Shown: piece by piece, positions 9,614-64,000 of the stretch
Numbering within the stretch: the first letter of the stretch is position 1
Layout of the letters: each line of letters opens with the position of its first letter
NCBI GenBank assembly: GCA_002118135.1
Contig: BDIU01000009.1
Location: 186,001-250,000, forward strand
Source of the DNA: Trebouxia sp. TZW2008
Taxonomy: Eukaryota > Chlorophyta > Trebouxiophyceae > Trebouxiales > Trebouxiaceae
DNA: 64,000 nt
Direction of reading: 5' to 3'
Program-made: the position numbers and the translations under genes
Notes under the pieces: model-generated
The model's database searches: none
What the model was told of the DNA's origin: nothing
What the model saw: the letters and a program-made list of their open reading frames with translations, nothing else

Positions 9614-9662
<49 letters not shown>

Positions 9663-12600
9663 CAGCAGCAGCTATACCAGGACAAGTTGTGACTCTGATG
9701 CCGGTCATGACATTCAATTGAGACCCACCTGCCTTGCCACCTGCTCAAACACCTTCCACAGCTCTGACAGCACATACACCTCCACTCCCTGCTCTGCAGC
9801 CCCCATTTCGGGCCTGTTACCCTCAAGGCTGGCCTCCCCAAGGCTGTTGCCCTCAGGGCTTCTGTCCTCAGCCCTGATGCCCTCAGCCCTTGCTGTTGCT
9901 TGTGAACTCCTCTGCTGAGACTTATTCTGATGAATATCAGGGCTCAGTAGGACCGATGCCTGTGGCTGTGCTTGCACAATTGGGGTGTTTGCTGCAGCCC
10001 CAGGATGAAGCAGGCTCAAAGAGGGGCTGGCAGGGGGTGGCCCCTGAATGCCAGGACTTGTTGCAGCAGCCCTGGGGCCAGGCAGGCTTAGGGTGGGGCT
10101 AGCAGGAGCAGCGAAGTTTTGGACAGGGCTGTTTGCAGCAGCTCTAGATCGAGGCAGGCTCAAAGTGGGGCTGGTGGGAACCTGATGGAAGGACAGATGG
10201 CGAGCAGGGGTGGGGGTGCACTGCTGGGATGCCTGGGGGGCTGCAGGGAGGTTGCCTCTGGACCCTCCTGAGCTCCTTGCTTGTCTTCCTTGCAGTGAGA
10301 CCAGTCCCCTGCACAACTGGCATAGTTTATGCAGGCAGTAAGTCAGGATGTAACTGCAACACCCAAATTGGTCAATGATGTTTCTGCTAAAACTGCTTCT
10401 GGTGTCATGAAGTGACTCTGTGTTTGAGAAGCCGTCTGGAACTGCCACTTACTGCACTTCCCTTCGGAATGTCATTTGCAAGCAGCGGGCAAACAGAGCA
10501 CTATTCCTTTCTTTTAAACAAACAATGCAAAACGAAAAGTGCTATTTCCTTCCTTTCCAAAAGGTGCAGGGTTTTTGAAACAATGAGCGCTTTTGACCTA
10601 AATGGTGAGATGGAGTCAGGATAGGCTTTCAGGGGCGTGATGGAGGGCTGAGCATTGCGGTGAGGGGTCGCCCCCGGGGTGACCCCGCCTACTGCAGCTG
10701 GCCCGCACTCCTCTGCATCTTCACTGCTGATGGTCGCGGGTTCAAGTGCCCATGCATCCAGGCTGGGCAAAAACAGCACCAGAGGGGAATGGCTGTTGGC
10801 CCTGCACAGACACACAGTGATCACCAAGACAAAGATCACCTCAAATCTCAGCCCGTCTGATGTTAGGGATGCTGCCGGATCCTGCCTCAGACGCCCTGAG
10901 CCATGCACACTCCTGCATCTTTCCTATATCATGCCAGAGCACATTTGCAACACAATTCCAGTGTTTGGGCGAGGCACATGACTTTCCAATGGACACAGTC
11001 TTGACTAGATGACTTTGTTGCGTGGCATATGCAATGTAAACACCTGCGTCTAGCTTCCTCAAGCAGTTGCACCAGACCAACAGCAGCATCACCAGAGCCT
11101 CCTGCCACAAGCATAGGCAGGCTGACTGTATGCACTTCCACCCCTTGCGCCAATTTCAGCACTGCCCCTGCAATGCTGCCCTGCCCTGAGTTCTCATCTC
11201 CACACAGCAGCAGCTTGCAGGGTCGAGAGGGGGGCTGTTTCTGGCAGCCCCACTCAGGGACCCCACTCTGTGGCCCCAGTGGGGTGGGCTGCCCAGGGCT
11301 GTTTGGATCAGCCCCCAAATCAGCTGCCCTCCCCAAATTGCCTGCAAGGCACAGTTCATCACAACTTCTCCTGGAAATGCAGTACATCAGGAATTTTGCT
11401 GGTGCTAGAACCGTATTCTAATAGAAAGCTGACAAGGTTTGTCTAGGCACACTGTTCCAACTGCAGAGCTCAATTTGCTTGCAGAGCAATGCAACAGCTA
11501 TGTCCTCATAAATGAATGTTGCAAAAGCGGAACTGCTTGTGAGCAATGCAACAGCCATGTGCTGATAACTGAATGTTCACAGGTGGCTCTCAAGTAAGGT
11601 TGCTGTAAAGTCCTAGCACCCTGCACATTTCAGGAATCCTTATAGCTAGTGCTATCAGGAAGTACAACAGCAACCAGAATGAGAAGAAGAATGTATTGTG
11701 ACTTCAAAACTGAGCATGCATGCATCTGCTGACCTGACGAGCGACTAACAGATGCTTCAACAGCTCCTAAATCGACAAAAGTTGCCTCAGGAGCCTCATG
11801 TTGCTCTGCTTCCTGCCCAGCTGCTGCACCAGCTTCCACACTGCCTGAGGACTTGCCAGCAGATGCTGTGACAGCTGCTAGAGCAGCTTCCATGGGACCT
11901 TGCCAGGGCAGCTGGGCTGCTGCGACGTGCAGTAATATGCTTGTCAGGGCTGGTAACAGCAAGGGCGACAGGTGGTAGGGCAGGGCTTTTGCATGGCCAG
12001 AGGATAGGGCAGAAAGGTTCTGCCTGGCAGAACAAGGCAGAGGGGCAGCTGCAAGGGCTGTTTGCCAGTCAACAGTCCTGACCTTCAGGCTGCCCAGCAA
12101 CTGCTCAGGCAGCTGCTTTGGACACCCTTGCTGCCGCCGCTGCTGCTGCTCTGTGCCTACCTGCTGTGCCTGTTGCTGAAGGCCATCTTGCTGCTGCTGA
12201 CTCTGCTGCTGCTGGTGCGGCTGATTGGTGGCAATGTGCTGTGACTGTTCTGTGGCCATCTGCTGTGAATATTGCTGGAAACTATGCTGCTGCTGCCAAG
12301 GGTTCAAGCTCTGCTGAGCAGGGTTCTGCTCTTCTTTGCCTTCTGCCATATGGCAGAGCTGATCTACAAGGCTGGGACAGGTGCGAGCCACAGCTGCCAT
12401 GACTGCAGCAGTGCACAGGGCTTGTAGGTCTGCCCCTGCAAAGCCCTCAGTGGACGCTGCTAGGCGCTGCAGCATGCTCACTGGCACCTGCTGATGCCAC
12501 CTGCATCAAAGAAGAACATGAGTGGGCAAGAAGAAGAAGATGAGGAGCTGTCGGCGCAGCGATGCATAGGGCCTGCAGATCTGCCCCTGCAGAGCGCTTT

Positions 12601-13170
12601 GTGGATGCTGCTAGGCGCTGCAGCACGCCAGCTGGCACCTGCTGACGCCACCTGTACCAAAGAGGAAGAGGGGTAGTATTAGAAGAGTGGAAAGAAGAGG
12701 ATGAGCTGTGACTGCAGGAGTGCAGTGGGCCTGCAGGTCTGCCCCTGCAAAGCCCTCGGTGGACACTGCTAGGCGCTGCAGGACCTCAGCTGGCACCTGC
12801 TGATACCACCTGCATCGAAAGAAGAAGAGGAGTGGTGCAACAAAGAGGAGCGGCAAGACAAAGAAGAGCACTTTGTGATTGCAACAGTGCACAGAGCTTG
12901 CAGATCTGCTCATGCAAAGCTGTTGGTGAATGCTGTCAGGCAATGCAGCACGCATGCTGGCACCTGCTGACGCCACCTGCTTTTAATGAAGGAAAGAACT
13001 GGTAAGAGAGGGACATCAGACCAAAATTATTGCCCGAGGGAGTTCACACCAATCTGAACATGTGTTTGTACACAGAGCAAAACCACAATGGAGAATCTAC
13101 AGCCATCTCAATTGTCTGCACTAAAAGTGGACAGACAGACTGACAGACAGGTAAACAGGCAGACAGACAA

Positions 13171-13214
<44 letters not shown>

Positions 13215-16200
13215 ACAGACAGATAGACAGGCGGGCAGACAGGCAGGCAGACAGACGGCCAGGCAGACAGACAGCCAGACAGAAAGACAGCCAGCCAGAC
13301 AGTAGATTAGGGCTGTTTGGGGAGCCCGTATGCCCTGATGCAGTGTGAGAGAAGGGAGTCACCTGCTTGTGCGCACCTTCAGGATTACAAGCCTGTCTGC
13401 AAGTTAGGGCAGGGAAAAATAAACCTCCCTGTCAATGCTACAAAGAATCCTATTGACGCTAGCACGTTTCAGTGAGGTGTGGGTCAATGCTAGAAGAAGA
13501 GAATTACCTGCTTGTGCGCACCTTCAAGATTGCAAGCCTGTCTGCAAGGGAGGGCAGGGCAAAATGGACCTCTCTGTCAAAGCGCCCTGGCCTACGTAGG
13601 GCAGGATCAATTGCGTCAGGCCTGTTGGTGGCCCCAATCACCACAACTGCCCCTCTGTCGACCAGCCCGTCCATGAGCGCCAATAGAGTAGATACCACTG
13701 ATGCAAAGACTTGGTCACAGCTGCTGCTGCTAGAAGCTCGGGCTGGCACTAGGCCATCTAGCTCATCTAGGAAGATGATTGACGGCGCCCTCCTTGCTGC
13801 CTGAAGCACAGCAAGGCCTATTCTGACTTAGACGTCCAAGCGATGCACTAAAACAAGGACAAAGCTGTTGGTAGCAGCTGCTGCTGATGGATGCACGCGC
13901 TGGCACTAGGCCGTCTAGCTCATCCAAGAAAATGATTGAACGCGCTCTCCTTGCTGCCTGTACCACTGCAAGGTATTTCATTCATGGGGAGATGATGAAG
14001 GGTGCCATGCTTGCTGCCTAAAGGATATAGAAGGACATGGAATGCTGAGGCGAGAGCACATGCAAACACTTGATTGCAGCAGCTGCTGCTGTTGGAAACG
14101 CAGGCTAGCACTAGGCCATCTAGCTCATCCAAGGAAGTGATTGAGGGTGCCCTTTGTGCAGCCTGTGATATGTGTGATCACTACATATCATGATTGTTGA
14201 AAAGCAATGCAGACATCGCTTGACAGATTGCACCAAGTCCCAATGAAGATGTGCAACACTAATGACTGCAGCTGCCGGCGCCAAAGCATTTACCTGACCC
14301 AAAAGGGTGATTGGGGTTGCCTTGTTTGCTGCGTGCCCAGCTTGCTGTGCTTCAGGCGTTTATTGGTTGAAAAGTTCTCATCGCATTCAAATCCATAAGA
14401 GCGACATTGTTCATTGCAGCAACCATGCTGCCGCTGATGCTGGGTCAACAAACATGCCTAACACAAAGGAAGTGCTGTGATATACTCAATGAGCTTGCAA
14501 GGGCACACCTCATCAAACAGCAGTCTAAGGGTCCTTTCAGCTTCCCCAGCAAACTTGCCCAGGCAATCTGCCCCCTTGCGAGCAAATAGCGTGACAGCAG
14601 ATCCACCCTGGCTATGGCTGCAGGCCCCTGCCAAAGCTCTAGCCACCAGGGTCTTGCCTGTGCCTGGGGCGCCATGGAACAAAATGCCCCTGCAGCCGTT
14701 AAGACGCACAAAGAACGTATTACTTCTGGGCTTGCAGATGATTGTCTCGGCTCTAACACAGTATACTAAAAAGCGTTGAGAAATGGACTGCCAGCAGCAT
14801 CAACATTGTCTACCTCATGAACAACCGAGTGACATTGATGCATATGGACAATCTGTGTACGCACAAAGATGACCTTGGTGGTGTTACGCCCGTGTGCCTG
14901 AAGACCTCAGGGTATTGCAGTGGCAGCAACACCATGTCTTTGAGCTGTTTGCATCACAGCTGCACGACTGCCCACAGCAGCTCACCTGCCTCATAGACAA
15001 TTGCCTGACACTGCTGCGCCTGGGCAATGTGGGGATGCACAGGGCTCACCTTGGTGGTGTGATACCCGTGTGCCGAAAGAACGGGTATTGCAGCGGCAGC
15101 AGCACCATTTCCTTCAGCTGCTGCATCACAGCTGCATGACTGCCCACAGCAGCTCACCTGCCTCATGGACAATTGCCTGACACTGCTGCACCTGGGCAAT
15201 GTGGGGATGCACAGGGCTCACCTTGGTGGTGTGATACCCGTGTGCCGAAAGAACGGGTATTGCAGCGGCAGCAACACCATGTCTTTCAGCTGCTGCATCA
15301 CAGCTGCATGACCGCCAACAGCAACCTTCTTACCTGATGGACAGATGACTGACACTGATGTACAACGGCAGCCTTAGCATGCACAGCGGTGATCTGGGCA
15401 AGATGATGCCTATGTGCGTGAAGACTTCTGAACACTGCAGAGGCAAGACGCTGCAAAGGTAGCAGCAGCGTTCTTGTGGGGGCAGGTAACAGACAATGAT
15501 GTACCCAGGCAAGCTTGGTGGGGTGATGCTTGAGTGCTTGAAGACCTCTGGGTTTTGCAGGGACGGGATGCTGTAGGGCCCGCAGCATTGTTATGCAGCA
15601 TAGCAGTGCAGGGACAGACCACTGACGCTCTGCAGTGGTGATCGAGGGTGACCTTGGAGGGGTGATGCCCATATGCTTGAAGACTTCTGGATACTGCAGC
15701 GGCAGCAGCACCATCTCCTTCAACTGCTGGATCACGGCTGCATGACCACCCACAGCAGCCCAGCCCTCACTCACCACATTCCTGTCAGCTGGCACAACCC
15801 CAGCAGAGGGCTCAGGGGGTTTGGCAGAAGCTTGTGACTGTGGCCTAGCACCTGCAAGTAGAATGCAATGTTTGCTACAAGATCAAAAACATCAGTTCAT
15901 ACAGTTTCTGGTACTTGGCACACCCTCAAAACCACTATCCCCTTCAGCTGCTGAACCACAGAGTGCATGCCCGCCCACAGCAGCCCAGCCCTCAGTCATC
16001 ACATTCCTGCCACCTGGTACAGCCCCAGCAGGGGCATCTGAGGGGTTGGCAGAAGCTCCTGACTGTGGCCCAGCATCTGCAAATGTGGCACCGTCAGTGC
16101 AAGAGTGTTAGCACCATACACATAGTGTTGATCACTTGGAAACATCCCCAGCAGCCAATCTCATTTAGCTGCTGAACCACAGGCGCATGACCGCGCATTG

Positions 16201-17537
16201 CCGCCCAGCCCTCACTCACCACAGCCCTATCCCCTGGCACAACCCCAGTAGGGGGCTCAGGGGGGTTTTTGGGAGTCTGTGGATCGCCATGGCTGTGGCC
16301 TAGCACCTGCAAGTGTGAGCATTGTTCGTCACTACAGGAGTGCAGACACATGTACACATGTAAATTTTTGTCACTTGGCACAACCCTAGCGAGGGCCTAA
16401 AGGGCCTTTGGTGGTTTGGCACAAGGTTCTGGCTGCTGTCTAGGACCTGCATGCGCAATATATGAATGTCATAGTGCACCAATACAAACATGCATAATTT
16501 CCGTGACTTATCCCCAACAGGCCCAACAGCGGGCTTTGGGGTCTTTGCCAGAAGCCTCTGACTAAGGCCTAGCATCTGCAAATGTGACACGTCACTGTCA
16601 CTCCAGGAGCAAAAACACGTGAACCCATGTGATGCATGACACCTGGCACAATCCCATGGCCTCAGCAGGGGACTCTGAGGGGTTGACAGAAGCCCCTGAC
16701 TGTGGCCAAAGGCTTGCAAATACAAGGTGTGAATGTCATTGCTGGCACACTGGTGCAAGCATACAAGAGTCACATCACTGAGCATGAGCTTGGCAGCCTC
16801 AGCAAGGGATTCTCAACTGCTGACAAGTCTTTTGACAATGACCTATCACCTTCCATAGCGCTACTTCAAACACACGCCAGTTCTGGCAGGTTTTCAGAGC
16901 TTGGCAGCCATGCTCTAGCAAGCTGGCAGAACTGATGTGTGCCTATATAGCGGCACAGGAAGGACTTTTGGCTTGGCAGAAGCTTAGCAGTGCACTCAAG
17001 CCTGCATGGGTTTAGGCTCAAGCTCGCAGCACTCGCGTCTTGAAGCAAGAACAGACAGAGATACAGTAGCTTCTCTGTATAAGGACACTCAACAAAAGGA
17101 CATTCTCAATGCAAGGACAAAGCAGTTGAAAACCTTTCACTACATTTTGCCTGCAAAGGCATCTTTAGTTAAGGGCAATCCGTTGTAAGGACAATTTTCT
17201 TGGTAGCCAACACAGCTTTCATAAAGAGAAAGTACTTTCTTGCCACCAGCTGCGTGTGCCATAGCCACTAGCACCTGCCTGTGTCAATTCTCACATGGCT
17301 GATGTGAACGCTGTCACCTCAGTAGCAACTTTGTTGAACACTGGCCAGCACAGCCTTCTTGGTGAATACCTTAGGAAATGTTATTTTCATAGGAGGTACG
17401 TTATGCGCAACCCAGCCATTGACATTACACGTTGTTTTAGGGCGTGGGCACAGCAAGCTTGGCTGCCACATGCATTAGATTAGTATTGGCTGACATTGTC
17501 TGTATGACCCCCTGCTGGGTCCCCATGACAGTAAATG

Positions 17538-17593
<56 letters not shown>

Positions 17594-19890
17594 CCGACCT
17601 AGGAAATGGTCCCACAGCTCTACTTGTGGATGGCTGTGCCTCGCCAAGGCTATTGTCTTGTGTGCCTCTAACTATTGAAGTGCAGCAAAAGCCAGTGGTG
17701 TTCACCAATCGATCAAGCGGACAGCACATCATCCACTCACATACATGCATGCAGATTGTTGATTCTCCTTGCATTATCTGTCAAAGAAAACAAGCTGACT
17801 TTGCACTATCTGTCCGATCAAAGTTTGAAGCAGCTTCTTTGCTTTGGCAGCAAATGGCGTGGAGCTATGCAAAGAATGGACATACCCAGCACAACCGGAT
17901 TCAGCCTGAGCTTGTCTCTGGCTAAACGAGCTGCATTCTTCTTCTGGAAGTGCTCTTCATCATCAGATCCTGCTGCCAGCGCTGCCCTGCAAAACAGTAT
18001 TGACGTGTTGATTTGGTGCATGTCTCAACTACTCAGATGTTGTTTGATCAGTTCCAAGTGTTGGACATGCAGTGCAATCGAGTTAGCTAACATGAAGAGT
18101 AATCAAGCGCCTTGACATGACCCTGTCTCTCGCTGTGAGTAGCATGTTTACTGCGCAATGTGCGGAATGCAATCGCAAATCACTGAGCAGAATTTTCCTG
18201 AGACAAGAAGAAAGCAATGGAAATGGCAATCGTTTGCCAGCAGGCATGAGAGTTGCTGGGGAGGACTTTTTGGATAATGTGTGATTGCATCAGATATTCA
18301 TGCTTGGGCTTGCGAACTTACATAAGAAAGGTTGCTTTGCTGTAAGTGCTTGTGTTTTTTGAGCTGCTCAGATACTGCCGCCCTCAAGATTGTGTAGTGT
18401 TGTGCATCTTGGGCTTAAGACTTCTGAACAATGAGAGCTGTTACTGCTCACAGCAACACAGGCCAAAAGGCAATGAAAGGCATTGGCAGTCATGGCATGT
18501 GATGTCAACACAAGATAGCGTTTGCCTGTGCACACACTCCTCAACACCAGCTTTCAGAAGTGTTGTCTGCAAGTAAAGCTTTGAGGCTGGTATTCCATGG
18601 CAACTGCATGGTCAACTGTGACATCGCAAGCATTTCAAAGCAAGCTGTCAGCAGGACTGAGTGAGTGTAGCACAAAGCAAAAATGCCCTCACTATGTCGC
18701 TTCACAATGAAGCCTATAGTATTAGAAACACTGCCAGACGCACAGCCATTTTGTCTGGCCGAGTTATTTCTACAAATTTGCTGAAGCTGTAGCAATACCT
18801 GGTTTCATGCCGCAGACGCTTGACAGCCTTCCTTGCATTACGCATTCTGTCCTCTGGAGGAGTGTCGCGCAAGCGCTTGATGCCAGCAGCATTAGTCACA
18901 GGACTCATTGCCCCATTGGCACCATTTCCATGCAGGTGCCTAGCCAGTGGGTATGGGCTGTATGGAGATATTGGGGTTTGCCTGCAGCCAACCCAGCTCT
19001 CGTGCTGGAGGTTTGCATTGATTTTGATGGGCAACAGCATATCCAGCTCAAAGGTTGGTAACCCAGTGTCTGGCAAGTTGCTTGCTGTGCATGCCTATGA
19101 TCCCTCTGCAGACGCATGCATAGTCACGCTGTTGGATCTGTGTTCAAGATGTGTAAGGCTTTCAGCTCTTGACCTCATGCTCTGCCAATGACACCAGCAA
19201 CTTAATCATCAAGACATGTCAGAAGTGTCTCACCCTCCTGCTGGCGCATCTGCTCCATACATGTGGGCATGCGCTTTGCATGCGATGAGATACTGACTGG
19301 GGTAGAAGGTGCAGCCTGCCTGCTTGGCGCAGTGCTTGTGAAAGGAATGTGGACAGTTGTCCAAGCGGCAGCCCATGGTGGCACCGCGCTGCTGACATTC
19401 AGCACACCTGCAAGACCAGGAAGTATATGCATGCATGCATTACTGTCTGTGCAAAATGTAGTTGAACGCTGAGGAGGTTTCATAATTGTCAGCTTAGAGA
19501 GCAACAGTCAGCTGAGACATGCAAAAATTTATATGTGGCGGATGCATGCATGCAAACATGGATGCATTAACATCATGCTTTCAAACATGGTACTTACCAT
19601 GTCACTCTGGCTCTTTTCAGAACCTTACTTATGCCTCTGATGCGAGCATCGCCTGTCTCATATGCCTGTGGGGCACGCAATTGATGCAGTGCTATACTTG
19701 ATGTTGCCTGTATCTTGCGCGATCAGCCAGGGTCACACACCTCAGGGCTCCAGATGGCGCACTCACGGTGCACCCAAAGTGCTTTCTTGCTTTTCGAGTC
19801 CTCGCCAACGGGGCCTATCAGATGGCCTAGCTGGTCTGTCTGGAAGCCTTCGGCATGACCGCATAAGCTACACAACCTATTGTCGTTCAT
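5300..19890 (-). CDS. ATAD2/Yta7-like AAA ATPase with N-terminal ePHD finger, 16 exons
   Basis: Exons on the minus strand: 19890-19741, 19665-19598, 19407-19234, 18981-18799, 17986-17886, 15851-15653, 14689-14509, 13800-13508, 12500-11734, 11341-11044, 10801-10598, 10308-9729, 9335-8568, 7761-7409, 7055-6017, 5533-5300. Phases agree throughout and give 1,863 codons plus stop. Exons 1-3 encode an extended PHD finger (CSLC, WVHREC, CAEC, CPHSFHKHC). Exons 4-5 are basic (KRLR). Exons 6-9 form the active AAA module: GITPPRG linker, Walker A GAPGTGKT, Walker B IIFLDELD, sensor GATNRPD, arginine fingers RRPGRFDRE, lid GFAGADLQALC. Exons 10-11 form a second AAA fold with a dead P-loop (LLLCGDENSGQG, no GKT lysine) and a Walker B strand lacking DE (LVLFLPSLDAWALE). 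Exons 12-15 are low-complexity with polyQ. No bromodomain is seen. The ePHD plus AAA order resembles a plant ATAD2-type chromatin ATPase, probably acting on nucleosomes or histones. Upstream non-recognised exons remain possible. Confidence 0.88.
6017..7055 (-). repeat. Glutamine-rich low-complexity exon 15 of the AAA ATPase
   Basis: The 346-codon exon is rich in Q, A, D and S. It contains CAG/CAA runs that encode polyglutamine tracts (around 6,130-6,165 and 6,220-6,245). In its middle is a short degenerate repeat around the word AARD/AAHDRSQDA/ASDQGLELAARD. Such tracts are typical disordered regions of nuclear proteins and are prone to length change. Confidence 0.75.
8248..8420. repeat. Direct repeat, ~52 bp copies at ~109 bp period
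   Basis: The block starting TGTAACAGGGTAGCACATAA and running to CATCGACCGG occurs at about 8,253-8,311 and again at 8,359-8,412 with only two or three differences. It lies in the intron between exons 13 and 14 of the AAA ATPase. The TGTAACA word appears once more at 8,425. Low divergence means a recent tandem duplication. Confidence 0.85.
8461..8560 (+). repeat. Dispersed repeat family A, copy 2
   Basis: About 90 bp containing GACAGTTGATTGCTTCTGTA, TACGTACCTAG, GGGCCTGCTGAGCCTGCC and TTTACAATGAATGAATG. It matches the reverse complement of 4,981-5,070 with roughly 90% identity by eye. A more diverged direct copy lies at 41,830-41,920 and partial inverted copies at 33,625-33,660 and 33,895-33,965. 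It lies inside an intron, just after the exon 13 donor. No terminal inverted repeat or coding capacity is visible, so it may be a small non-autonomous element. Confidence 0.75.
9610..9675. repeat. (CAG)n microsatellite in an intron
   Basis: Roughly 17-19 nearly perfect CAG units lie in the intron between exons 12 and 13 of the AAA ATPase. On the gene strand it reads CTG. It is outside the coding exons in my model, unlike the polyQ runs of exon 15. Confidence 0.9.
9960..10215 (-). repeat. Three tandem ~21-residue repeats in exon 12
   Basis: On the minus strand the peptide unit (P)xSPTLSLPRSRAAANSP occurs three times in a row, as SPTLSLPRSRAAANSP, SPTLSLPGPRAAATSP and SPSLSLLHPGAAANTP, each about 63-66 bases. 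It is a coding minisatellite in the disordered C-terminal half of the AAA ATPase. SP sites recur and could be phosphorylated. Confidence 0.8.
12556..12980 (-). repeat. Three decayed upstream copies of the AAA lid exon (exon 9 head)
   Basis: Copies at about 12,556-12,655, 12,715-12,815 and 12,888-12,980 repeat the first ~95 bases of exon 9, which starts at 12,500. The middle copy is best kept: acceptor CAG, then WYQQVPAEVLQRLAVSTEGF. The outer two are read in a shifted frame. All three lie 5' of the real exon in gene direction, each with ~60-70 bases of similar purine-rich (GAAGAAGAGG) intron. None has a donor matching the real exon end. Confidence 0.85.
13128..13305. repeat. (CAGG/CAGA)n simple repeat
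   Basis: About 175 bp of imperfect tetranucleotides, with a pure CAGG core near 13,170-13,213 flanked by CAGACAGA variants, in the intron between exons 8 and 9 of the AAA ATPase. The open frame across it is an artefact of the 4-bp period. Confidence 0.9.
13355..13440 (-). repeat. Downstream partial copy of the Walker B exon tail
   Basis: Plus-strand text CTGCTTGTGCGCACCTTCAG and about 60 further bases repeat the last part of exon 8 (13,508-13,590), including its donor region. It lies 3' of the intact exon in gene direction and contains only the exon tail. Confidence 0.8.
13866..14340 (-). repeat. Four decayed upstream copies of the Walker B exon head
   Basis: Copies at about 13,866-13,975, 13,984-14,020, 14,084-14,165 and 14,262-14,340 repeat the start of exon 8. 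Readable peptides are AARRARSIIFLDELDGLVPA, a short AASMAPFII, AAQRAPSITSLDELDGLV and AANKATPITLLGQVNALA, so decay increases with distance from the real exon (13,800). They stop within the exon and have no donor. In the real exon the same segment carries the Walker B residues. Confidence 0.88.
14868..15575 (-). repeat. Five downstream copies of the exon 6 tail of the AAA ATPase
   Basis: Copies of the 3' part of exon 6 lie at about 14,868-14,985, 15,047-15,160, 15,218-15,330, 15,390-15,450 and 15,510-15,575. The second and third belong to two nearly identical ~172-bp units (14,983-15,152 and 15,155-15,325). Both keep an open frame through AAVMQQLKEMVLLPLQYP and FFRHTGITPPR, and a canonical AAG/GTGAGCC donor in the same phase as exon 6. 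The other three are shifted or lack the donor. All lie 3' of the intact exon (15,851-15,653). Confidence 0.88.
15922..16722 (-). repeat. Five upstream copies of the exon 6 head of the AAA ATPase
   Basis: Copies at about 15,922-16,080, 16,150-16,312, 16,378-16,450, 16,503-16,581 and 16,633-16,722 all repeat the CAG acceptor and the Pro/Ser-rich start of exon 6 (words like GCTAGGCCACAG, CCTGAGCCC, GTTGTGCCAG). The first two run on to the EGWAA..GHA..VQQL region. The last three keep only ~70 bases. Decay grows with distance from the intact exon. None has a usable donor. Confidence 0.85.
17055..17215. repeat. Dispersed repeat family B (TAAGGACA-type), copy 1
   Basis: Contains the recurring words TATAAGGACACTCAA, AAAGGACATTC, GCAAGGACAA and TGTAAGGACAATTT. 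Related blocks lie at 34,185-34,255 (partial), 35,020-35,180 and 38,090-38,235. It has internal ~15-18 bp periodicity around AAGGACA and no coding potential. It lies in the large intron between exons 5 and 6 of the AAA ATPase. Confidence 0.65.
17535..17593. repeat. (ATTG)n microsatellite
   Basis: About 14 perfect GATT/ATTG tetranucleotide units in an intron of the AAA ATPase gene. Confidence 0.95.
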
Positions 19891-49309: not shown

Positions 49310-50023
49310 TGTTTGCTTGTCTGTGACTGCGCTTGTTACTGCCAAATATGCGTACCAAAATGCAACTTGATGCTGCGCCTCTGAGCTAAGTCAGTGTGTT
49401 ATTGACAATCGTGCCATATTGCTTTGGCCATGGCCACAGTGCTCAATTGCGACGCTCAAGTGCATGCTATGACGCACTTGCCTATATGTATATTATTGTT
49501 AGGTCCCATGGCCAGACTGGGCCATGCCTTTGCTGGCGTTTGGCATATCACAGAACTAGCTCAGTCCCTTTGTCTGTGATTGCAAGCAGCTGGAATTGCT
49601 GCAATCTTGAAGGTTGATGCTGTGTTATGCCTAGGTGCATATGCTTTGTTTGCTTTGAAAACCCCTGCGCTGGGCTTGTGCTCATTATTGATCCCTTACA
49701 AAAGCACTCATTGCAAGCGTTAGCAAGGGGGATTTAAACGGCCAAGTCACGGCTTTGTTCTTCAGTAACGAGCCTTCAACATTGCAAGCCAATAGCAATT
49801 ACTGTTTATCAATCATGTCCATGACTGCATGCAGCTTGCACAATGAAGCCAAGCTGGCTTGCAAAGTGCTTTGCCTCAAACCATAGCTCATGCATGAGCA
49901 AGGCAACAGTCATGCCTTTGCTGACACTTGCTGCAAAATTGACAATTGAGACAACATTCACTGTTGAACTTGTTGGTCACCCCAAGCAGCAATTCAAGCC
50001 TAAAATGGCCACTGTCCCAGTTT
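49310..50023. other. Convergent intergenic spacer
   Basis: Between the stops of the coiled-coil gene and VPS45. No exon is recognised. Confidence 0.5.
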
Positions 50024-53000: not shown

Positions 53001-56000
53001 ATGCAGGCAGCTTGAAAACACGGCCTACTTGTCAGCATCTGTGAGTCCTGGACCAGTGACGAGGCCGATGATGGCCTCATAGTGCTGCATGAGGTTGCTG
53101 GAGCTGCAAGCAACCTCCTGCTCCATGCTGGACACCTGCAACCACATGTAACTACTTACTTCGCGCAAAAAAATATTGAGCATACCTCTGTGTACAGAAC
53201 TGCATTGGAGTGTGCAGAGATGTCTCACAAAATTTTGCAAACGCATGTCACAAAGTGCGCTGCAGACAGCATACATAGCAGCCCTCGGATTGGAGATAGC
53301 AACAAGCGAGCCAAGCAACATATCTATGCTCATATCAATGCACAACCATCTGCAAAGGTGTGTGCATGGTTGGATGATGCATGACAAGGACTGCACATTC
53401 ATGAGCAAATGTGTCCTGATTGTGGAATGGCATCTCGACCAGACTCAGCATGTCATGCGTAACATAAGTATTTGAGGGTGTTTGCCATAGACTGCCTGAA
53501 TCTCATGGACAGTTGATTATTGTCCTATGTGGCACATGCGATCAGCCTTTTGACTGGCAAAAGCATGTAAAACTACATCCTCACTCTTTTTCAAACGATG
53601 AGGAGTCTTTTTAGCACTGCAAATGTATAGAGAAAGCACCTGCATGAGTGTGCGTGTGTCCACCAGGCGCGATAGCTCGCTCATGATGGTGACATGCTTG
53701 CCAGCATTTCTCTGGGCAGCACTGAACTCGCTGAAGTTCTCCACAAAGTTCTGCAACACAAAAGGCCTCGTCATCATTGCCAGAAAGGCCATTGAACAAA
53801 ACAGGCAGGGAATGTTGAGGCGCGCGGAACCCACAAAAACTCTGTACAAAGTTCAGCATCAGAAAACGTGTTATTGCATACACCAGATACACTATTCTAT
53901 GAGACAGTCAGTCATGATGGTGACATGCTTGCTGGCATTTCTCTGAGCAGTGCTGAAGTCGCTGAAGTCTCTCCACAAAGTTCTGCAACACAAAAGGCCT
54001 CGTCATTGTTGCCAAAAGGACATTGAACAAGAAAGGCAGGAAATGTTCAGGCACACGGAATTCACAAGCTCTCCACAAAGTTCTGCATCACAAAGTGTGT
54101 CGCTTGCAAACACCAGACACAAAATTCTATGAGACAGTCAGTCATGATGGTGACATGCTTGCCAGCATTTCTCTGAGCAGCACTGAACTCGCTGAAGTTT
54201 CTCTACAAAGTTCTGCATCACAACAGGCTTTGTCATACATGACATACACGACAGACTACAAGAGAGGGAGTCTCTATGACAGCATGCTTGCCGGCATTTC
54301 CTGAGCAGTGCTGAACTTGCTCAAGTCTCCATAAGACTCTGCATTGTACCAGGCTGTGTCAAAGAACGAGACCAGAAATGAGCTTTGGCCTGTAAAGTTG
54401 GTGGGCACATTGCCGCAGCTGCCGGACAGAGGCTGAGAAGCGTACTACAAGCCATCAGATGCGTAGGCTGTGAAGGAGCATCATGTAGCGTATCGATCGA
54501 AGACACACGTCAAAGTTGAACAATGCAAATCAATAGTGTCTTGAAGTCTGGGAGAAGTGCAACAAAGGTGTCAGGAATTGAGAAATTGCTGCAGCTGCAG
54601 CAGCAGTGCTGCAATACTGCTGAGAAGCTGTTCAACAAGGAAGAGCTGTGCAAGACATGTCACTATTGGGCAGAGGCAGCAGACGACAGGCTGAAAGGAA
54701 CAGGGAATGATTGATAACAGAGAACAAAAAGACATATCACAGTGGTGCCACATCTTGATCTGGCACCATTGTTGTCTGTGACAAAGCAGGTCCCATGGTC
54801 AGGCTGTCAGTCTGAGCAATGAACAATCCAAGCATTCAGCAATCTTGGCATCACATCAAAGAATGCTGCTAATTGATCACGGTAGTCCTGTAGGGACATT
54901 GCGCAGAACAGGTTGAAAGCAATTTGCAGTGACGACAAGCTTGCATGTTTCAGTACAATGTCTGTCGAGACTTTTGATCTTGCCAATTGACAAGCAGCTC
55001 TTGTACCACAAACTGCTGCCTGTTGATGCATTCTGTGCTACAAAACAGATATAACTTATGACAGCTGGCACACAAAAAGAGAATGACAGGCTGAAAGGAG
55101 CATGGATTGATTGGTAACAGACAACATGGTGGACGCCAAATCACGGTAGTGACGAACATCTTGATGTGGCATCAACTGTTGTCTGTGACCAAGCAGGTCC
55201 CATAGTCAGGCTGTCAGTCTGGGCAATGAACCATCCAAGCATTCAGCGTGTTTTGATACAATGTTGGCTGAACATCACGTGTAAGGTAGACAATGTGCAG
55301 GATTAGCACAGGTGCAAACTCCCTTTTGCAGGCCCAATAAGCGTGTGTGTGTCAACACAGTGTCTGTTGTGCGTTTTGATCTTGCCAATTGACAATTGTG
55401 CTGCTCCTGCACAATTAACAACGCTTGCTGCCGCTTGGCGGAATGCAGTACTGTGCTGCAAAAGCAACAGCTGATCAGCTGGTATGATTGATGGCTAAGT
55501 TGAGCGTCATTGATGCAAATGTTGCCTGCATAGACAAAATAAAGCCACATGACTTGAGCTGAAACAGACAGGTGCAGTCACTTCTTAAGTGTCTTGTGCA
55601 CCATATAGCTTGTCCACTCGCTGTATGTATGCTGAGTGATGACAGGTGATACCCTGAGGCAAACCTGCATGTCTGCAGTTGAGTCGATGCGCTTGGAGTT
55701 GTTACAATGTTTCAGGAACCCGTCTTTAAGCTCTTTGACTCAATGTCGCCAAAATTGGCATACATACTGATTGTGCGTTTGATAAATGCTGCAAGCGGTC
55801 ATTTGGAGGCAGACCTGCATGTCTTCAATTGTGTTGATGCGCTTGGAGTTGTTGCTCTGTTTCTGAAATTCGTCCACAAGCTCCTTCACAGCTGACCCAA
55901 TGTCGCCAAAGTTGGCATACATGTTCTTACGGAAGAAGTCATCTTGCCTATAGCTCAGCACTGCTTCCTGAAAGTCCTTCTTGACCTGCACAGAAAACAC

Positions 56001-58922
56001 AGAAAGTGCAGTTGCTGACTGCAAAAGCTGATTCAGCAAAATGCAAAGCAAGTCGCAAAGGAGCAAAACAAGATAGCTGAGCACTGCTTCCTGAAAGTCC
56101 TTCTTCGACTACACAGCAACCACAGAAATTGCAGTTGTTGACTGCAGAAGCTGATTCAGCAAAGCATGAAGTCGGGTGCACAAGAGCAACATGGCATAGC
56201 TCAGCACAGCTTCCTGAAAAGCCTTCTACACAGCAAACATTGCAACACCTCAATCTCCAGAGCAAGGCCAAAGATTATGTTGGAATTGCAATCAGGGTTG
56301 TTGACTGTGAGCAAAAGTTCATGAAGCTCAAGCTGAGACAGGTTGCTGAGGAGCCTTCCGCTTTGTGCATGCAAATCTTACAACATCAATGCAATGTGTG
56401 TAGTAGTGCGTGCTGATGGAAGTTGATTGACTCCTTAATCACAAAAATATATGTGCCTTGGGGCTGAATCGGCACACAATGAGTTTTATTATGATTGTCA
56501 TGATTTTCAGGATACTGTACATCAAACTGACGAGGGAAGATGACCTACGCCTGGTATGTGTGACAGGTCGACCCTATTGGTTTCCAACCCTATGAGCTCA
56601 TGAACCATAGCCTGGTAGGTCCACTGAAGCAGCAGAGGGGTGACAGGGTCATCCTTTCTGTCCAGGATAAGCACTAGGGGCGAGGCCTCCTGCCCTCGTG
56701 CCCCAAAGTCAAACAGCCCTCGCTCCTCCACTGTTGTCAGATGGTGCAGCGACTGTGCTAGCTTCTCACAAGCCTCACTGTTGCGCTGATACCTGTGCAT
56801 AAAGGGAATTCACAGAAATTGGCTGGACAGCTTGGTGATACAATCAGCACAGCAAGAACGCAAATTTTTTTGTCTTGTGGCATTGTCATGGGACTTTGCT
56901 GTACTTTGAAGCAAATGGGAACCTAAAGTCAAAGAGCCCTTGCTCTTCAACAGTTGTCAGATGATGAAGCGACTGTGCTAGCACAAGCTTCGCTGTTGCG
57001 CTGGTACCTACACATGGAGTGAATCCACAGTCAGACTTGGCTTGAAAACCTGGTGTTACAATCAGTGCAAAAAGGAGCGGCTCTTGAGTGTTGCCAAAGC
57101 CAAACAGCCCTGGCTCCTCTACATGTGTCAGATGGTGCAATGACTGCGCCAGCTTCTCACCAGCTTCCCTGTTGCGCTGGTACCTATACATGGCTGAGAT
57201 ATGACCTGTCAGCATGTGCAATCGTATATGATGACGATTGCAGAAGCCATGCCTGACCCCTGCCAGGTGTTTGCCAGCTTTCAATTGCAAGTGCTGTGAA
57301 CGGTGCTGCTGTGATGAGCTGTCACTGCTTCAGCCTGCTTGTATCATTTGCGTTTGCTCGCTACCTAACTGCTGCTGCTGCTGCTGCTGCTGCTGCGGTT
57401 TGATCTCATGTGCCGTCTGTGGTGCTTCAGCTGAAACTACTTGCCTGAGTGGGCATATCTGACTGCTGCTCATGCACGCCTTCCCCAACTTTTCAACAGG
57501 GCCGAGCCATGACAACTGTAGACAAGCTTTTGTCCTGTACATCTTGCAAGGTATGCAATGCTAAACTAACAGCAGCACACTAAAATTGCATACATCACCG
57601 TTTTACTGCAAGATTGCTATGATTGCAAAAGCACTACATCATTGTGTTTGAGCTTTGTAAGGGTAAACAACAAAACATGCCTGATGTTGAAGCGCCTGCG
57701 CAGGGACAGCGTCAAGGATGCCAGTCCTTCTGTCATGCGGGTGACAGCATCTGTGCTGTTGGCATAGTCCCAGTTGAAGGGCTGCAACACGACATGCGGC
57801 CGAGGCAAGGGTATGCAGAAGTGCTGTGGGTCCATGACCACAAAGTCACCAAAGAATTCCTGCACCTGTTCACAGAAAACCAATACAAGCCTCAGATATC
57901 TACAATACATTGCAGCTAAGCAAGTGATGGCATAGTCCCAGTTGAAGGGTTGCAACACGACATGTGGCCGAGGCAAGGGTATGCAGAAGTGCTGTGAGTC
58001 CATGACCACAAAGTCACCAAAGAATTCCTGCACCTGCAAACAGAAACACATGTGCTTGTCTCAGAAATATGCAAAGTGGTGCAGCTAAGGAGGCAGCTCA
58101 ATGCTTGTATTGGCAGCAGAAGAAGTCTTTGGACCTGTTTACCAAGCATGTGATAACTGATGATTGTGATGCAGCCACGCAGGTACGGTCTCAATGATGG
58201 GATGGTAGGCCTTGTCAGACGTACAGGCTTGTCCAACAGCTGTTTAGCAGCTGTATTGTTGTACCTGTGCAACCAACTCCTTGCTGTCACCCTCAGCCAG
58301 ATCTTGAAGCCGCATGTCTTCCACACGGTTTGTAAAATCTGCACACAGCAACAGCCTGATTGCACTTGCATGGATGTGATGTTGCAGACATTTTGCATGT
58401 TGTGATGACAATGTTTTGATTTGCATGAATGTGTTAAGCAGACTCAGACCTTACTGACACCCTGGGAGTTGCTGGTATTACAAGGTGCGCAGGCTGTGTT
58501 TGTGGCAAGGCAAGCAACAAAGCAAACTGAGCACTGACTGACCGGTACTCACACATATTGTAAGACCCATAGCACGGCTCCCTGAGCTCTCTGCGCAGCC
58601 TGGCAATGTTCTCGCGTGTTGGCCGCACAAAGCACACTGCCTGCGTGCCACGAAGAGCTTGGTAGGGATGGCGGGTGCATAGCAGCTGAGTATGCCCTGC
58701 ATTGAAGGTAGCCTTTCTGCTTGCCTTCAGGTGCACAAGCGGATCTCTCTTGTCAGCATCCAGTCTTTCGACCAGGTAAACTTCTTGCTCTAGGATTTCA
58801 GATTGGCTGTAGACAGTGCTGACAATCCTTGTCGTGTCAGCATCCAGTAGCAACACCTTCATGCCTGGGATCTCCTTCAGCATCCTGTCGACGTAGTATC
58901 GAACAACAGTAGCTAAGTCCAT
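50024..58922 (-). CDS. VPS45: VPS45, Sec1/Munc18-family vesicle fusion protein, 11 exons
   Basis: Exons: 58922-58725, 58640-58553, 58338-58265, 57865-57681, 56792-56549, 55985-55815, 53750-53640, 53135-53029, 52169-52088, 50841-50701, 50371-50024. Phases agree and give 582 codons plus stop, the usual family length. Conserved stretches follow VPS45 order: IPGMKVLLLDADTTRIVSTV, YSQSEILEQEVYLVERLD, FVRPTRENIARLRREL, LVLILDRKDDPVTPLLLQWT, YQAMVHELIGL, MYANFGDIGSAVKELVDEFQ, GKHVTIMSELSRLVD, RLVMLFALRYEREG, GVENVYTQHTPLL and IFIVGGTTYEEARVV. VPS45 works with a Tlg2/SYP4-type syntaxin at the TGN/early endosome to guide SNARE assembly. Two introns (58724-58641 and the one after exon 4) have GC donors. 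The first is 84 bp, in frame and stop-free. Most exons are flanked by decayed partial copies. It is head-to-head with the kinase gene. Confidence 0.95.
50938..51200 (-). repeat. Upstream partial copies of VPS45 exon 10 head
   Basis: A well-kept copy at about 50,938-51,012 reads AGTPRQQLALVRTLLLNSGQ as the real exon does, then diverges. A weaker one lies at about 51,140-51,200. Both lie 5' of the intact exon (50,841) and lack its tail. Confidence 0.85.
52510..52970 (-). repeat. Three downstream partial copies of VPS45 exon 8 tail
   Basis: CTTGTCAGCATCTGTGAGTC-type text from the end of exon 8 (53,029-53,080 on the plus strand) recurs at about 52,890-52,965, 52,735-52,790 and, weakly, 52,512-52,560. 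The first still reads MIGLITGSGLTDADK on the minus strand. All lie 3' of the intact exon and carry only its tail. Confidence 0.83.
53815..54350 (-). repeat. Tandem ~230-bp units holding VPS45 exon 7 head
   Basis: The start of exon 7 (GTGACATGCTTGCCAGCATT and TCTCTGAGCAG on the plus strand) plus its upstream intron (AAAGTTCTGCAACACAAAAGGCCTCGTC) recurs at about 53,915-54,010, 54,145-54,235 and 54,280-54,350. Each copy carries matching intron (GACATTGAACAAGAAAGGCA), so the unit is exon head plus intron. The frames are broken. All lie 5' of the intact exon (53,750). Confidence 0.87.
54690..55420. repeat. Two ~400-bp tandem units inside a VPS45 intron
   Basis: GACAGGCTGAAAGGA (54,687 and 55,087), then TTGTCTGTGAC(A/C)AAGCAGGTCC (54,772 and 55,179), then CAATGAAC(A/C)ATCCAAGCATTCAGC (54,819 and 55,225) and TTTTGATCTTGCCAATTGAC (54,971 and 55,374) occur in the same order about 400 bp apart. 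No exon similarity is seen, so this is a purely intronic tandem duplication between exons 7 and 6. Confidence 0.88.
55655..55785 (-). repeat. Downstream partial copy of VPS45 exon 6 tail
   Basis: Repeats the part of exon 6 encoding MYANFGDI to the end (plus-strand words CAATGTCGCC, GCGCTTGGAGTTGTT, ACCTGCATGTCTGCAGTTGA). Internal deletion and frame changes make it non-functional. It lies 3' of the intact exon. Confidence 0.82.
56065..56235 (-). repeat. Two upstream copies of VPS45 exon 6 head
   Basis: AGCACTGCTTCCTGAAAGTC plus the following intron (CACAGAAA.TGCAGTTG.TGACTGCA) recurs at about 56,078-56,150 and 56,200-56,232. Only the first ~10-15 codons of exon 6 are present. They lie 5' of the intact exon (55,985). 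Confidence 0.83.
56922..57195 (-). repeat. Two decayed upstream copies of VPS45 exon 5 head
   Basis: Copies at about 56,925-57,010 and 57,095-57,190 read YQRNSEA.. / SLHHLTTVEEQGLFDF and YQRNREAGEKLAQSLHHLTH on the minus strand. They match the start of exon 5 (56,792), then diverge before the LILDRKDDP motif. Both keep a CAG acceptor. Confidence 0.88.
57370..57397. repeat. (CTG)n microsatellite
   Basis: Nine to ten CTG units in a VPS45 intron, in the same strand sense as the polyQ/CAG tracts elsewhere when read in reverse. Confidence 0.9.
57925..58033 (-). repeat. Near-identical upstream copy of VPS45 exon 4 head, still open
   Basis: A 109-base copy of the first part of exon 4 (57,865-57,757) with about three differences by eye; one changes MDPQHF to MDSQHF. 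It keeps the CAG acceptor and the reading frame VQEFFGDFVV..HFCIPLPRP. The frame stays open through the following intron into the real exon 4. It has no obvious donor of its own. Confidence 0.9.
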
Positions 58923-60278: not shown

Positions 60279-63200
60279 ATGACTTCGAGCCAAGCATTGA
60301 AATACCAGCTGAAGATCAACACGACTTTCGGCAGGTACCGACAAGACTTCGAATCTAGATATGAGGTCAAAGACAAGGTCGGCTCTGGAAGCTTTGGCAC
60401 CGTTTACAAGGTTGTCAGCAAGCAGACAGGCGAAGAGTAAGCACATCTCCTTTTTTCACGACAAGTGCACCTGCTTTCAAGTCTCAGATGCATACTCTAC
60501 TGCTCACATGCTTGTGTGCCATTGTCCTCATTCAAGCACGGCACTGCAGGCACAGCATGCCACAACAAGACAAGCTTTCAACATGTATGCATGAACTTTC
60601 CCGACCAGGTCATCCACAATTCAGCAGCTGGCATAATCTGACATGATGCTGCATGCTTGTATATTGTCACGCTCTTGCATTAGCTGGCGCCTCAACAGAC
60701 TTTCTGTGTTCACCATTCACATGCACCTCACACGCTACAGCATGATCATTTCGAGCTTGAAGGATGCATGTTGCACATAGCAGGTGCAAGTTGTTCAGTC
60801 GTTCATACTTAATCTTGACTGATTGCTGTCCTGCTGCAGGTTTGCGGTCAAAAAGATCGCAAAGCGTTTTGACCCGAACACATACATGGAGCCAATGTTT
60901 GCACGGCGCATACAGCATGAAGTGGACATCTACAATCATATAGGTCAGTGAATTTTTGACCTTGCGCGCGCACTTGTGTGCAGAAGATTGCATGGCCGAG
61001 CAGCATGCACCTGGCAACCAAGCAAAGTTGCACAATCAGCTTCATTCTGCTGTTACTCCTGGAAATGCAACTCTCTTCCTCAAGGTTTCACAGTGCGTGA
61101 CAAAGTGATCTTCCAAGGCCCAACAATAAAAACGCCAGATGCACTCATGCATCCTATACATACAGCAAGTGCAAACAATCTGCCAGCTGTGCAAATTTGC
61201 TGTGCATTGCCACCAACCTGACCGAAATTCAATAAATGATTACATAGCATTGTCAACTCAGGCAGGTCCTTGGATGTGACGCACTTGTATGGTGCATAAG
61301 AACACAGCACAGGTGTGATGCTGGTCATGTAGATGCGCATTATCACCAAACTTGCCAGCCTGCAGCAAATCACAACACAATTTGTCAGTGCAGGCAATTC
61401 GTTGAATGTGGCAAAGCTATATGGTGCACGTGAGAACAGTGTCCGTGTGCTGCGGGGTATGGAAATGTACAGTGGGAGAGATGTGCATGATCACCAAGCT
61501 TCCAATCACCCTCAACATCAGCAAACTACAAAATGCATTGTCTTTGCAGGCAGGTCGTTGAATGTGGCATACTTGTACGGTGCATATGAGGACAGCAAGA
61601 GTGTGATGCTGGTGATGGAGATATGCAGCGGGGGAGAAATGTGGAATCGAGTGCGCCGTGGCAGGTACAGCGAGAAAGGTGCCCATTGACATTCAGACAG
61701 TGCAACAAGACCACTCTGTATATTTCTATCGACATGGCGCATGCAGCACGAGAGGTGCCTCTGCTGTCCAATCCATTCCTCTTTATGCATGTGAAATTGT
61801 TGCAGGACAGCGAGGAAGGCGCTGGTTGACATTTGCCAAGTGCAACGATGTTACTCTGTGCTATTCCCTGCTTTACTGTATTGCCCCTGTGCTATGCCTG
61901 AGCCTCATCATCTCCATCATCCCAAGGTCACCTGCATTGAGGGGAGGGAGGTGTGCACATTCTTGATCATGTGTATGAAGCAGTATAAAGTCAGCTGCTG
62001 TTGTGCCCGCATGCATGCTTTATGACTCGATTGTGTAAGCGGGCTGCTGCTGCTCACACAGGGGCTTCCTTTACACCACCTGACAGCGTAGACAATCTGT
62101 CCTTGTTTGTCACTGCATTCCGCCCCACCACTGTCAATGAGGCTGTCTGACACATTGCACTTGCTGCCCAATATGTCACCATGCATGCAGCTAATGTTTC
62201 ATGTTTCTGCCTGCAGACGCCGCCAATGCAACCCGCGACGTCCTGAGGACCATAGCGCAATGCCACTCCCGCAATGTGCTCATACGTGATGTGAAGCCTG
62301 ACAACTTCCTGTATCTGACTGCTGATGATGAGGCGCCTCTGAAAGCCATTGACTTTGGGCTTGCACAGTACTGCAAGCCAGACGAGAGCTTGAGAGACAG
62401 AGCAGGTGCTTGTCATGAGTCAAGCAGACATGTTCAGTGCATTGTATGTATGTGCGGCCAATTTTGGTGTGCACCTTGATGAGGCCAATTGTGAACAAAG
62501 TCTCAGCAGTTGGCCACATGATGCTGATGCTGTGTCAGTTCATATTCACGGTGTCGTGTGAATCTCAAGTTGATTCAGTACCTCAGAAGTGCAGCAATAT
62601 CCTGTGAAACATCATCTGCCTGTATGGATAGGCCACAGCACAGCACAGCACAGCACAGCACAGCACAGCACAGCATCCAATTGCGCTGTGTAGCCAACAC
62701 CCACTGTATCAGAGCAAGATGCATAAACCTGCATATGGTGAAGCATAGCCATCATCAGCCAGCATCAATTGTTAATCTACACTATATTCTGTGGATGCAG
62801 GCACAGCAATCTACATAGCACCTGAGGTGCTGAAGCAGAAGTATGGTTTGCCCTCAGACCTGTGGTCAGCTGGTATCATAGCTTACCAGCTGGTAACAGG
62901 CCGTTTGCCCTTCTCTGGAGAAGAAGGAGAAGAGGTCAGCACACGCTTTATGGAGAAGCAGCAGTTTGACCACAAGGTACAGAAAATCTCCATGTTTAGC
63001 GAATGCCAAATGAGGTTCATGAGATGAGGTTGTTGTCATTCTGAACACAACGTTGCAGGAGGTCAGGGCGGTGCTGTATGCTGCGCTGGATTCAGAAGCC
63101 CAACTCAGTAACCTCTCAATGCAAAGACTTGGTCCATAGCCTGCTGCAGTGCCATTTTACTGTACAACCTTTCTTTTTCTTGTCATTCTGCCTCCACTTC

Positions 63201-64000
63201 TTCTGCTGCTGTTCTGTTTGTGATGATATCGCAGGAGGTGTTCAGGGCAGTGTTGTACACTGGGCTGGACTTGAGCAGCCCACGCTGGTATTGAATATCC
63301 CCTTTATGCAAGATCTTGATGCAAAGCCTACAGTGTCACCTTACTTCTGCTTATTTTTCTTCTTCTTCTGCCTGTCATGCAATGTAACATTGTTGCAGGA
63401 GGTATTCCGGGCAGTGCTGTATGCTGAGCTGGACTTTGACAGCCCCCCTTGGGATTCAGTATCCCCTCAGTGCAAGGATCTGGTGCAGAGCCTGCTGCAG
63501 CGAGACCCTGCTAGCCGCCTCACAGCTGCTCAAGCCCTCAAGCACAGGTGGGCGCTACTGCTCCTCTTGACATTTGCCTGCATGTAATGATGCAAGCACA
63601 GGTCAGGCTTACTGTCCTGTCAGTACTAGCTTGCAGGTACAGTGGCGCAGCTGGATCTTCACATCCTGGGCAGTTACACATGCACTCACATGCGACATGC
63701 ACTTGTACGCAATGCTCCTTTGTTCATGCTGTAAGCCCTGCTGGTGCTCAAGCTCTCAAGCACCGGTCAGACACTGTTTTGCTTGAGATATGAAAGCACA
63801 GTCACTTGCAAGTTGGCCGGCATATCTGTACACAGCAGAGCTGTCAGCAGAACACTACTTATGAGAAATTGTATATTGCTTTGCTGTGCTGCTGCATGAT
63901 CATCAAACAAGGTTGAAATGATTGTCAGAACTTCTACCTATATGCTTTTATGCTCTGCAGTTGGCTGTCATACACAGAGGATGTAGCATCAGATGCGCCG
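60279..64000 (+). CDS. CDPK-like serine/threonine protein kinase, 3' end outside the window
   Basis: Exons: 60279-60436, 60840-60943, 61550-61678, 62217-62405, 62801-62976, 63399-63547 and 63961 to beyond the window; phases agree. ATG 60279 is the first in-frame start. Kinase motifs in order: glycine loop VGSGSFGTVYK, catalytic lysine in FAVKKIAK, helix C glutamate in QHEVDIYNHI, hinge VMEICSGGEM, catalytic loop VLIRDVKPDNFLYL, DFG in AIDFGLAQYCKP, APE in TAIYIAPEVL, DLWSAGII, and the closing arginine region DPASRLTAAQALKH. The HRD histidine is replaced by isoleucine. The sequence after the kinase domain (WLSYTEDVASDAP) resembles the start of a CDPK autoinhibitory junction, so calcium-binding EF hands are expected to the right, but I cannot see them. 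It probably phosphorylates Ser/Thr in response to Ca2+. Confidence 0.85.
61258..61485 (+). repeat. Two decayed upstream copies of kinase exon 3 head
   Basis: Copies at about 61,258-61,350 and 61,388-61,485 repeat the start of exon 3 (61,550). The second reads GNSLNVAKLYGARENSVRVL where the real exon reads GRSLNVAYLYGAYEDSKSVM. The first contains stops. Both keep the CAG-like acceptor and diverge before the exon end. Confidence 0.88.
62634..62674. repeat. (CACAG)n microsatellite
   Basis: Eight perfect CACAG pentamers in the intron between kinase exons 4 and 5. Confidence 0.95.
63056..63325 (+). repeat. Two decayed upstream copies of kinase exon 6 head
   Basis: Copies at about 63,056-63,155 and 63,234-63,325 repeat GCAGGAGGT..TTC(A/C)GGGCAGT and the LYAELDFDSP region of exon 6 (63,399). 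Each has its own TTCTTTTTCTTC/CTGCC pyrimidine-rich tract, so the repeated unit is intron tail plus exon head. Single-base changes break the frame in both. Confidence 0.88.
63730..63770 (+). repeat. Downstream copy of kinase exon 6 tail
   Basis: AGCCCTGCTGGTGCTCAAGC and TCTCAAGCACCGGT repeat the end of exon 6 (63,508-63,549) with an internal deletion. It lies 3' of the intact exon. Confidence 0.75.

Follow-up and report, generated by a model that had tools for sequence, protein, structure and literature searches.

In a 64-kb stretch of the genome of Trebouxia sp. TZW2008, a lichen photobiont alga, introns of four genes carry partial copies of the exon beside them (the stretch, 64,000 nucleotides of contig BDIU01000009.1, is referred to below as the window, and is part of a 68.5-megabase (Mb), 527-contig genome assembly). 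The layout of these copies is strict: head copies, which comprise a splice acceptor and the start of an exon, lie upstream of the intact exon, and tail copies, which comprise the end of an exon and a splice donor, lie downstream of it. A count against gene models confirmed that boundary-anchored exon-fragment copies with this layout exist, and very probably they record a succession of local tandem duplications, mostly of 100-250 bp, each crossing one splice junction. Given tandem duplication and a surviving gene, such a layout is close to a logical necessity, and so the informative finding is how common the copies are.

For each exon, taken with 110 bp of flanking sequence, matches in the rest of its gene were sought by blastn (E<=0.01, no more than 1.5 kb away), and a match was counted as a copy if it reached or spanned the junction and overlapped any other exon by no more than 20 bases; four more matches that fell short of the junction were excluded from the resulting 42. 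In the four modelled genes, encoding VPS45, a coiled-coil protein, an ATAD2-like AAA ATPase and a CDPK-like kinase, 29/29 head copies were upstream of their exon and 13/13 tail copies downstream, and so the sidedness claimed in a first-pass annotation of the window was borne out by direct count, with 0/42 placements on the opposite side. The copies are spread over 20 exon sides, 13 head and 7 tail, and by our own arithmetic, independent sides drawn at random would give 20/20 about once in a million trials. That annotation had listed copies at AAA exons 6, 8 and 9, VPS45 exons 4, 5, 6, 7, 8 and 10 and kinase exons 3 and 6, all of which were found under the same numbering; in the coiled-coil gene, copies were found at exons 2, 3, 9 and 10 of our model, and the exons that the annotation named 10 and 12 are probably two of these, counted differently.

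In the VPS45 gene (minus strand), head copies lie upstream of exon 4 (57925..58089; 86% over 165 bp), exon 5 (two, 56922..57191; 78% and 84%), exon 6 (56073-56218; 81%), exon 7 (four matches, 53912..54343; 81-93%) and exon 10 (two, 50941..51200; 78-85%), and tail copies downstream of exon 6 (55656..55765; 79%) and exon 8 (three, 52404..52942; 72-86%); an extra 32-bp fragment of exon 6 (56196-56227) was not counted. The AAA gene (minus strand) carries five head copies of exon 6 upstream (15933..16725; 71-83%) and five tail copies downstream (14870..15560; 78-80%), the latter including a full tandem array of 172 bp x 2.6 at 14872-15323, as well as three head copies of exon 8 upstream (13868..14165; 78-84%), one tail copy of the same exon downstream (13350..13438; 87%) and three head copies of exon 9 upstream (12556..12980; 76-79%). 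On the plus strand, the coiled-coil gene has head copies upstream of exon 3 (41065..41196; 74%), exon 9 (two, 45286..45479; 79-86%) and exon 10 (46307..46365; 81%) and a tail copy downstream of exon 2 (40653..40741; 78%), with an uncounted exon 3 fragment short of the donor downstream (41563..41597; 91% over 35 bp). The kinase gene, also on the plus strand, has two head copies upstream of each of exons 3 (61247..61481; 70-80%) and 6 (63052..63329; 75-78%), with a weak tail copy downstream of exon 3 (61799..61859; 73%, E 0.004) and a short one downstream of exon 6 (63745..63767; 91%, E 0.001).

The same layout was observed elsewhere in the genome. In sixteen 10-kb stretches from eleven other contigs, picked by position alone and with exons predicted ab initio, 12/12 heads were upstream and 12/12 tails downstream among the placeable single-junction matches, which come from 5/16 stretches (L004, L005, L008, L010 and L011). 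Left out of this count were 6 matches that covered small predicted exons from end to end, 1 tail whose side was undecided, 2 interior matches and 2 inverted matches. Together with the window genes, 66/66 placed single-junction matches are thus on the predicted side. A Pfam family was found in 3/4 predicted proteins submitted from these stretches. An excess of heads over tails, which stood at 14 to 1 in a strict first pass, shrank to 13 vs 7 exon sides after a wider search and the addition of the fourth gene, does not appear in the other stretches, where each kind has 12 matches, and was therefore dropped.

Local repeats, counted with simple repeats masked and at E<=1e-4 over 224 kb (the 64-kb window and 160 kb in the 16 stretches), are overwhelmingly direct, with 174 direct vs 6 inverted pairs. 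In the window alone, 59 such pairs are direct and none is inverted, and the 16 stretches contribute 115 and 6, direct pairs being present in 14/16; since the direct excess persists after masking, chance or simple repeats were rejected as the source of the pairs. Local direct repeats take up 18.3 kb of the 160 kb in the stretches and 8.3 kb of the 64-kb window, or about 12% of the 224 kb. In an unmasked exon-anchored search, the VPS45 and coiled-coil genes had no inverted matches and the AAA gene had 24; these 24 we take to be CTG/CAG repeats, because 19/22 inverted matches from another search are such repeats. Spacing has a median of 161 bp among 99 primary pairs (120-179 bp in 47/99, 180-239 bp in 13/99), and identity is 70-90% in 83/99. 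Only 2/99 pairs are at least 95% identical, and therefore either the process has slowed (a past burst) or young copies are missing from the assembly. Two further kinds of repeat were noted in the window: a short dispersed one (about 45-92 bp, 81-84%), which occurs in both orientations, unlike the local copies (4985-5067, 8463-8553, 33899-33946 and 41843-41915), and perfect or near-perfect tetra- and pentanucleotide microsatellites of TTGA, CACT and CACAG (17538-17593, 30853-30909 and 62634-62675).

Under the tandem-duplication reading, a duplication across an acceptor would place the intron end and exon head twice in tandem, with the downstream unit alone joined to the exon body, and a duplication across a donor would leave a spare exon tail and donor downstream. 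Splicing would keep using the site joined to the whole exon, and so the gene would remain functional, with the spare copy staying within an intron now longer by one unit. The DNA event itself would presumably be a replication or break-repair duplication and not a mobile element. Since most copies retain AG or GT, yet competing sites are tolerated at either intron end, the spare sites are probably ignored because exons are recognised as units, that is, by exon definition as described in PMC3488318. As for selection against whole-exon duplication, the simulation expected too few cases for a test (78/2,498 placements).

The copies behave as debris, in that the copy decays and the exon is kept. 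In three genes, exon and copy differ at 195 amino acids; the Trebouxia C0005 or C0004 protein matches the exon at 134 of these, the copy at 10 and neither at 51. An in-frame stop or an indel interrupts the exon part of 26/46 matches (the 46 include the four short of the junction). The exon parts of copies differ from the exon by 3-29%. When 17 exon sides from three genes were each represented by their longest copy, mismatch in exon parts was 0.113, 0.086 and 0.251 at codon positions 1, 2 and 3, against 0.208 in aligned intron; with all copies, the values were 0.132, 0.102 and 0.254, and 0.210 in intron. Positions 1 and 2 thus mismatch about half as often as intron does, which is what drift of the copy alone, beside a constrained exon, should give. 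Copies scored below the paired real site in 27/29 acceptors and 7/13 donors, with matrices that were built from real sites and hence favour them.

Introns with copies are also longer (n=17, median 726 bp) than those without (n=24, median 394 bp; p 4e-5), though longer introns offer more room for copies, and so the difference is supportive and not proof. Distances from the junction to the farthest copy total 6,901/24,521 intron bases in the four genes, an upper estimate of 28% for the share of intron length that these duplications may have added. For Asterochloris, a table in PMC6652019 gives about 9 introns per gene, a gene length of 4,240 and a messenger RNA of 1,400, from which our own division yields roughly 315 bp per intron. 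The first-pass proposal that introns here grow by successive tandem duplications is thus supported by five predicted features that were found: the layout, direct orientation, locality, an intact exon paired with a decaying copy, and longer introns.

Several observations weigh against this reading. The matched length is at most 0.9 (rounded) of the spacing in 72/99 primary pairs and, while some arrays are fully tandem, in others the units are separated by unrelated spacer; some of the blocks of ~90% identity are sharp-edged with unrelated spacer between them, and such blocks are not produced by plain tandem duplication followed by uniform decay. Mismatch at codon position 3 is somewhat above a rough neutral expectation. 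The intron sides of copies have, overall, decayed further than the exon sides would lead one to expect, with a mean score of 21 vs 53 expected at 0.12 indels per substitution or 33 at 0.3, although the 80 bases compared may exceed the duplicated unit and so lower the scores; among single copies, 7 and 5 of 39 have an intron side below p 0.05 at the two indel rates. This stronger decay is clearest at VPS45 exon 4, where 105/109 exon bases are identical, and at one exon 7 copy (68/70). Any of four causes could produce it: the live exon may have converted the copy, the repair joint may contain filler, the duplicated unit may have ended near the junction, or the copied site may still see some use. 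Lastly, the exons of the other 16 stretches are ab initio and noisy, and at least one of those counted (L008, 3028-3113) may itself be a copy.

The sharp-edged blocks and the short matched lengths are what templated insertion would leave, in which a break is repaired with nearby sequence and filler. By this route, however, copies would be expected on either side of the exon, and every placed match is on the predicted side; we consider it unlikely as the main source, and a hybrid with tandem duplication is possible.

Tandem duplication could also be directed to exon/intron junctions, for example by nucleosome or transcript structure, and not fall at random. Among non-exonic arrays in three genes, 16/20 cross a junction (one of the four intron-only arrays is a GACA microsatellite), whereas 35-37% of simulated random duplications, either intronic or crossing one junction, do so. 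After correction for the easier detection of exon-anchored copies, which favours old crossing events, the expectation rises to 45% (p 0.0015), and to 56% (p 0.022) if the known duplications are first taken out of the present introns, a layout that includes the kinase gene while the observed 16/20 does not. The data thus suggest an excess of junction crossing that depends on the ancestral intron length assumed. The clustering of unit sizes at 120-179 bp points to a directed process as well, but a log-normal fit to the spacings is not rejected (p 0.09). Direction to junctions, while compatible with tandem duplication, seems to us doubtful. A bolder proposal, which we likewise consider rather unlikely, is that most intron DNA in Trebouxia was laid down across the genome by a junction-preferring tandem duplication of roughly nucleosome-sized segments (mode 120-179 bp), in which strictly exon-defined splicing would ignore near-identical intact sites and length would ratchet up, crossing duplications being tolerated and losses that touch a live exon not.

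The copies could instead be functional alternative exons or splice sites under selection. In line with this, the splice dinucleotides are mostly retained (AG in 26/29 head copies, GT in 10/13 tail copies), and the VPS45 exon 4 copy, whose intron flank is far more diverged than its exon part, would add an open stretch to the protein. Yet by our own estimate, drift at the rate seen in exon parts would leave about as many AGs intact, and only 3/42 copied sites are usable in frame and open, the other 39 shifting the frame or meeting a stop. The stops and indels in over half of the matches also speak against function, and insertions of this kind are absent from the alignment with the C0005 VPS45 protein. 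The excess of mismatches at codon position 3, which would fit selection on copies, was not pressed as proof of coding, because the lesions and the frame analysis point the other way. Function under selection is therefore quite improbable as a general account.

Use of the acceptor in the VPS45 exon 4 head copy (57866-58089) would add 168 nt (56 codons) in frame and without a stop, and this copy is a candidate alternative isoform or gene-conversion tract. Tandem exon duplication, including that behind mutually exclusive exons, yields neighbouring exon copies in one orientation. The Trebouxia copies share the proximity and the orientation, but mutually exclusive exons are complete, and no copy with both splice sites was found in the three genes tested.

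Introner elements are dispersed families that add intron DNA genome-wide. Introns gain DNA here as well, but four copy regions searched as DNA had no match beyond their own locus in the 68.5-Mb genome, in a search that scores the best candidates and skips simple repeats, and far direct pairs within the examined loci number 14 vs 174 local ones, which makes an origin from introner-like or other dispersed mobile elements highly implausible. An assembly artefact is just as hard to credit, as the exon-copy differences are far beyond consensus error and many copies have lesions of their own.

Two custom-written programs, a compact unsupervised gene finder and an aligner of proteins to spliced genes, served to locate exons. 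The VPS45, AAA and coiled-coil products have their best matches among Trebouxia proteins, which places the DNA in that genus. The VPS45 gene (50027..58922, minus strand, 11 exons; Pfam Sec1) was modelled by spliced alignment to a Trebouxia sp. C0005 protein with 90% identity over aligned columns; its exons 1-6 lie at 58922-58725, 58640-58553, 58338-58265, 57865-57681, 56792-56549 and 55985-55815, and exons 7-11 at 53750-53640, 53135-53029, 52169-52088, 50841-50701 and 50371-50027. From the same alignment, two of its introns have apparent GC donors on the minus strand (58719-58724, GCAAGC, and 57675-57680, GCATGT). The coiled-coil gene (39533..49306, plus strand, 12 exons used) rests on spliced alignments to Trebouxia proteins (61% to Trebouxia C0004), with no Pfam family in the 351 amino acids submitted; its first small exons, between 39715 and 40440, are unsettled and carry no counted copy. 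The AAA gene (6017..19890, minus strand, 15 exons used; Pfam AAA and AAA_lid_3) was aligned at 53% to Trebouxia C0004, and its C-terminal exons are uncertain and likewise carry no counted copy. Its exons 13 (8648-8942) and 12 (9982-10174) contain coding tandem repeats, with spacings divisible by 3 in 6/7 and 2/2 cases, respectively. The kinase gene (60279..64000, plus strand, leaving the window; 7 exons) was hand-built from splice sites and reading frame, with exons at 60279-60436, 60840-60943, 61550-61678, 62217-62405, 62801-62976, 63399-63547 and 63961 onwards, and is calcium-dependent-type by a Pfam Pkinase domain and a PDB match to CDPK3.

Events of this kind have precedents. In the potato RdRp gene (PMC4974935), a tandem genomic duplication gave rise to a new intron, under a model for which Rogers 1989 and Hellsten 2011 are cited. 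The event is of the same kind as in Trebouxia, but was seen once, and the copied segment there turned into an additional exon with an additional intron, whereas the Trebouxia copies stay inside an old intron and lengthen it, several per gene and at many loci. Internal gene duplication (Gao and Lynch 2009, as cited) is likewise a common within-gene duplication, there linked with intron creation, while the Trebouxia unit spans a single junction, with a single exon left intact. Among the top-ranked titles and abstract openings of the open-licence literature searched, none describes the pattern in Trebouxia or as widespread in the genome of an alga. Two papers on long-read Trebouxia assemblies were searched by word: 'intron' and 'tandem' each occur 0 times in the main text of PMC11523091 (six strains), and in PMC12712428 (strain A48) 'intron' occurs 1 time, in the reference list, and 'tandem' 0 times. 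The kind of event is therefore already known, and its scale appears to be new.

The copies carry a warning for annotation, as ab initio gene finders call exon-edge copies as exons, and the one used here did so. Beyond this, they touch on two long-standing questions, namely where intron length comes from and how the spliceosome chooses between two near-equal sites. A single genome here offers many duplications of single splice sites, of graded age and each with the intact exon as an internal control, from which the birth and decay rates of intron DNA could be measured, as well as which copied sites are used and at what age.

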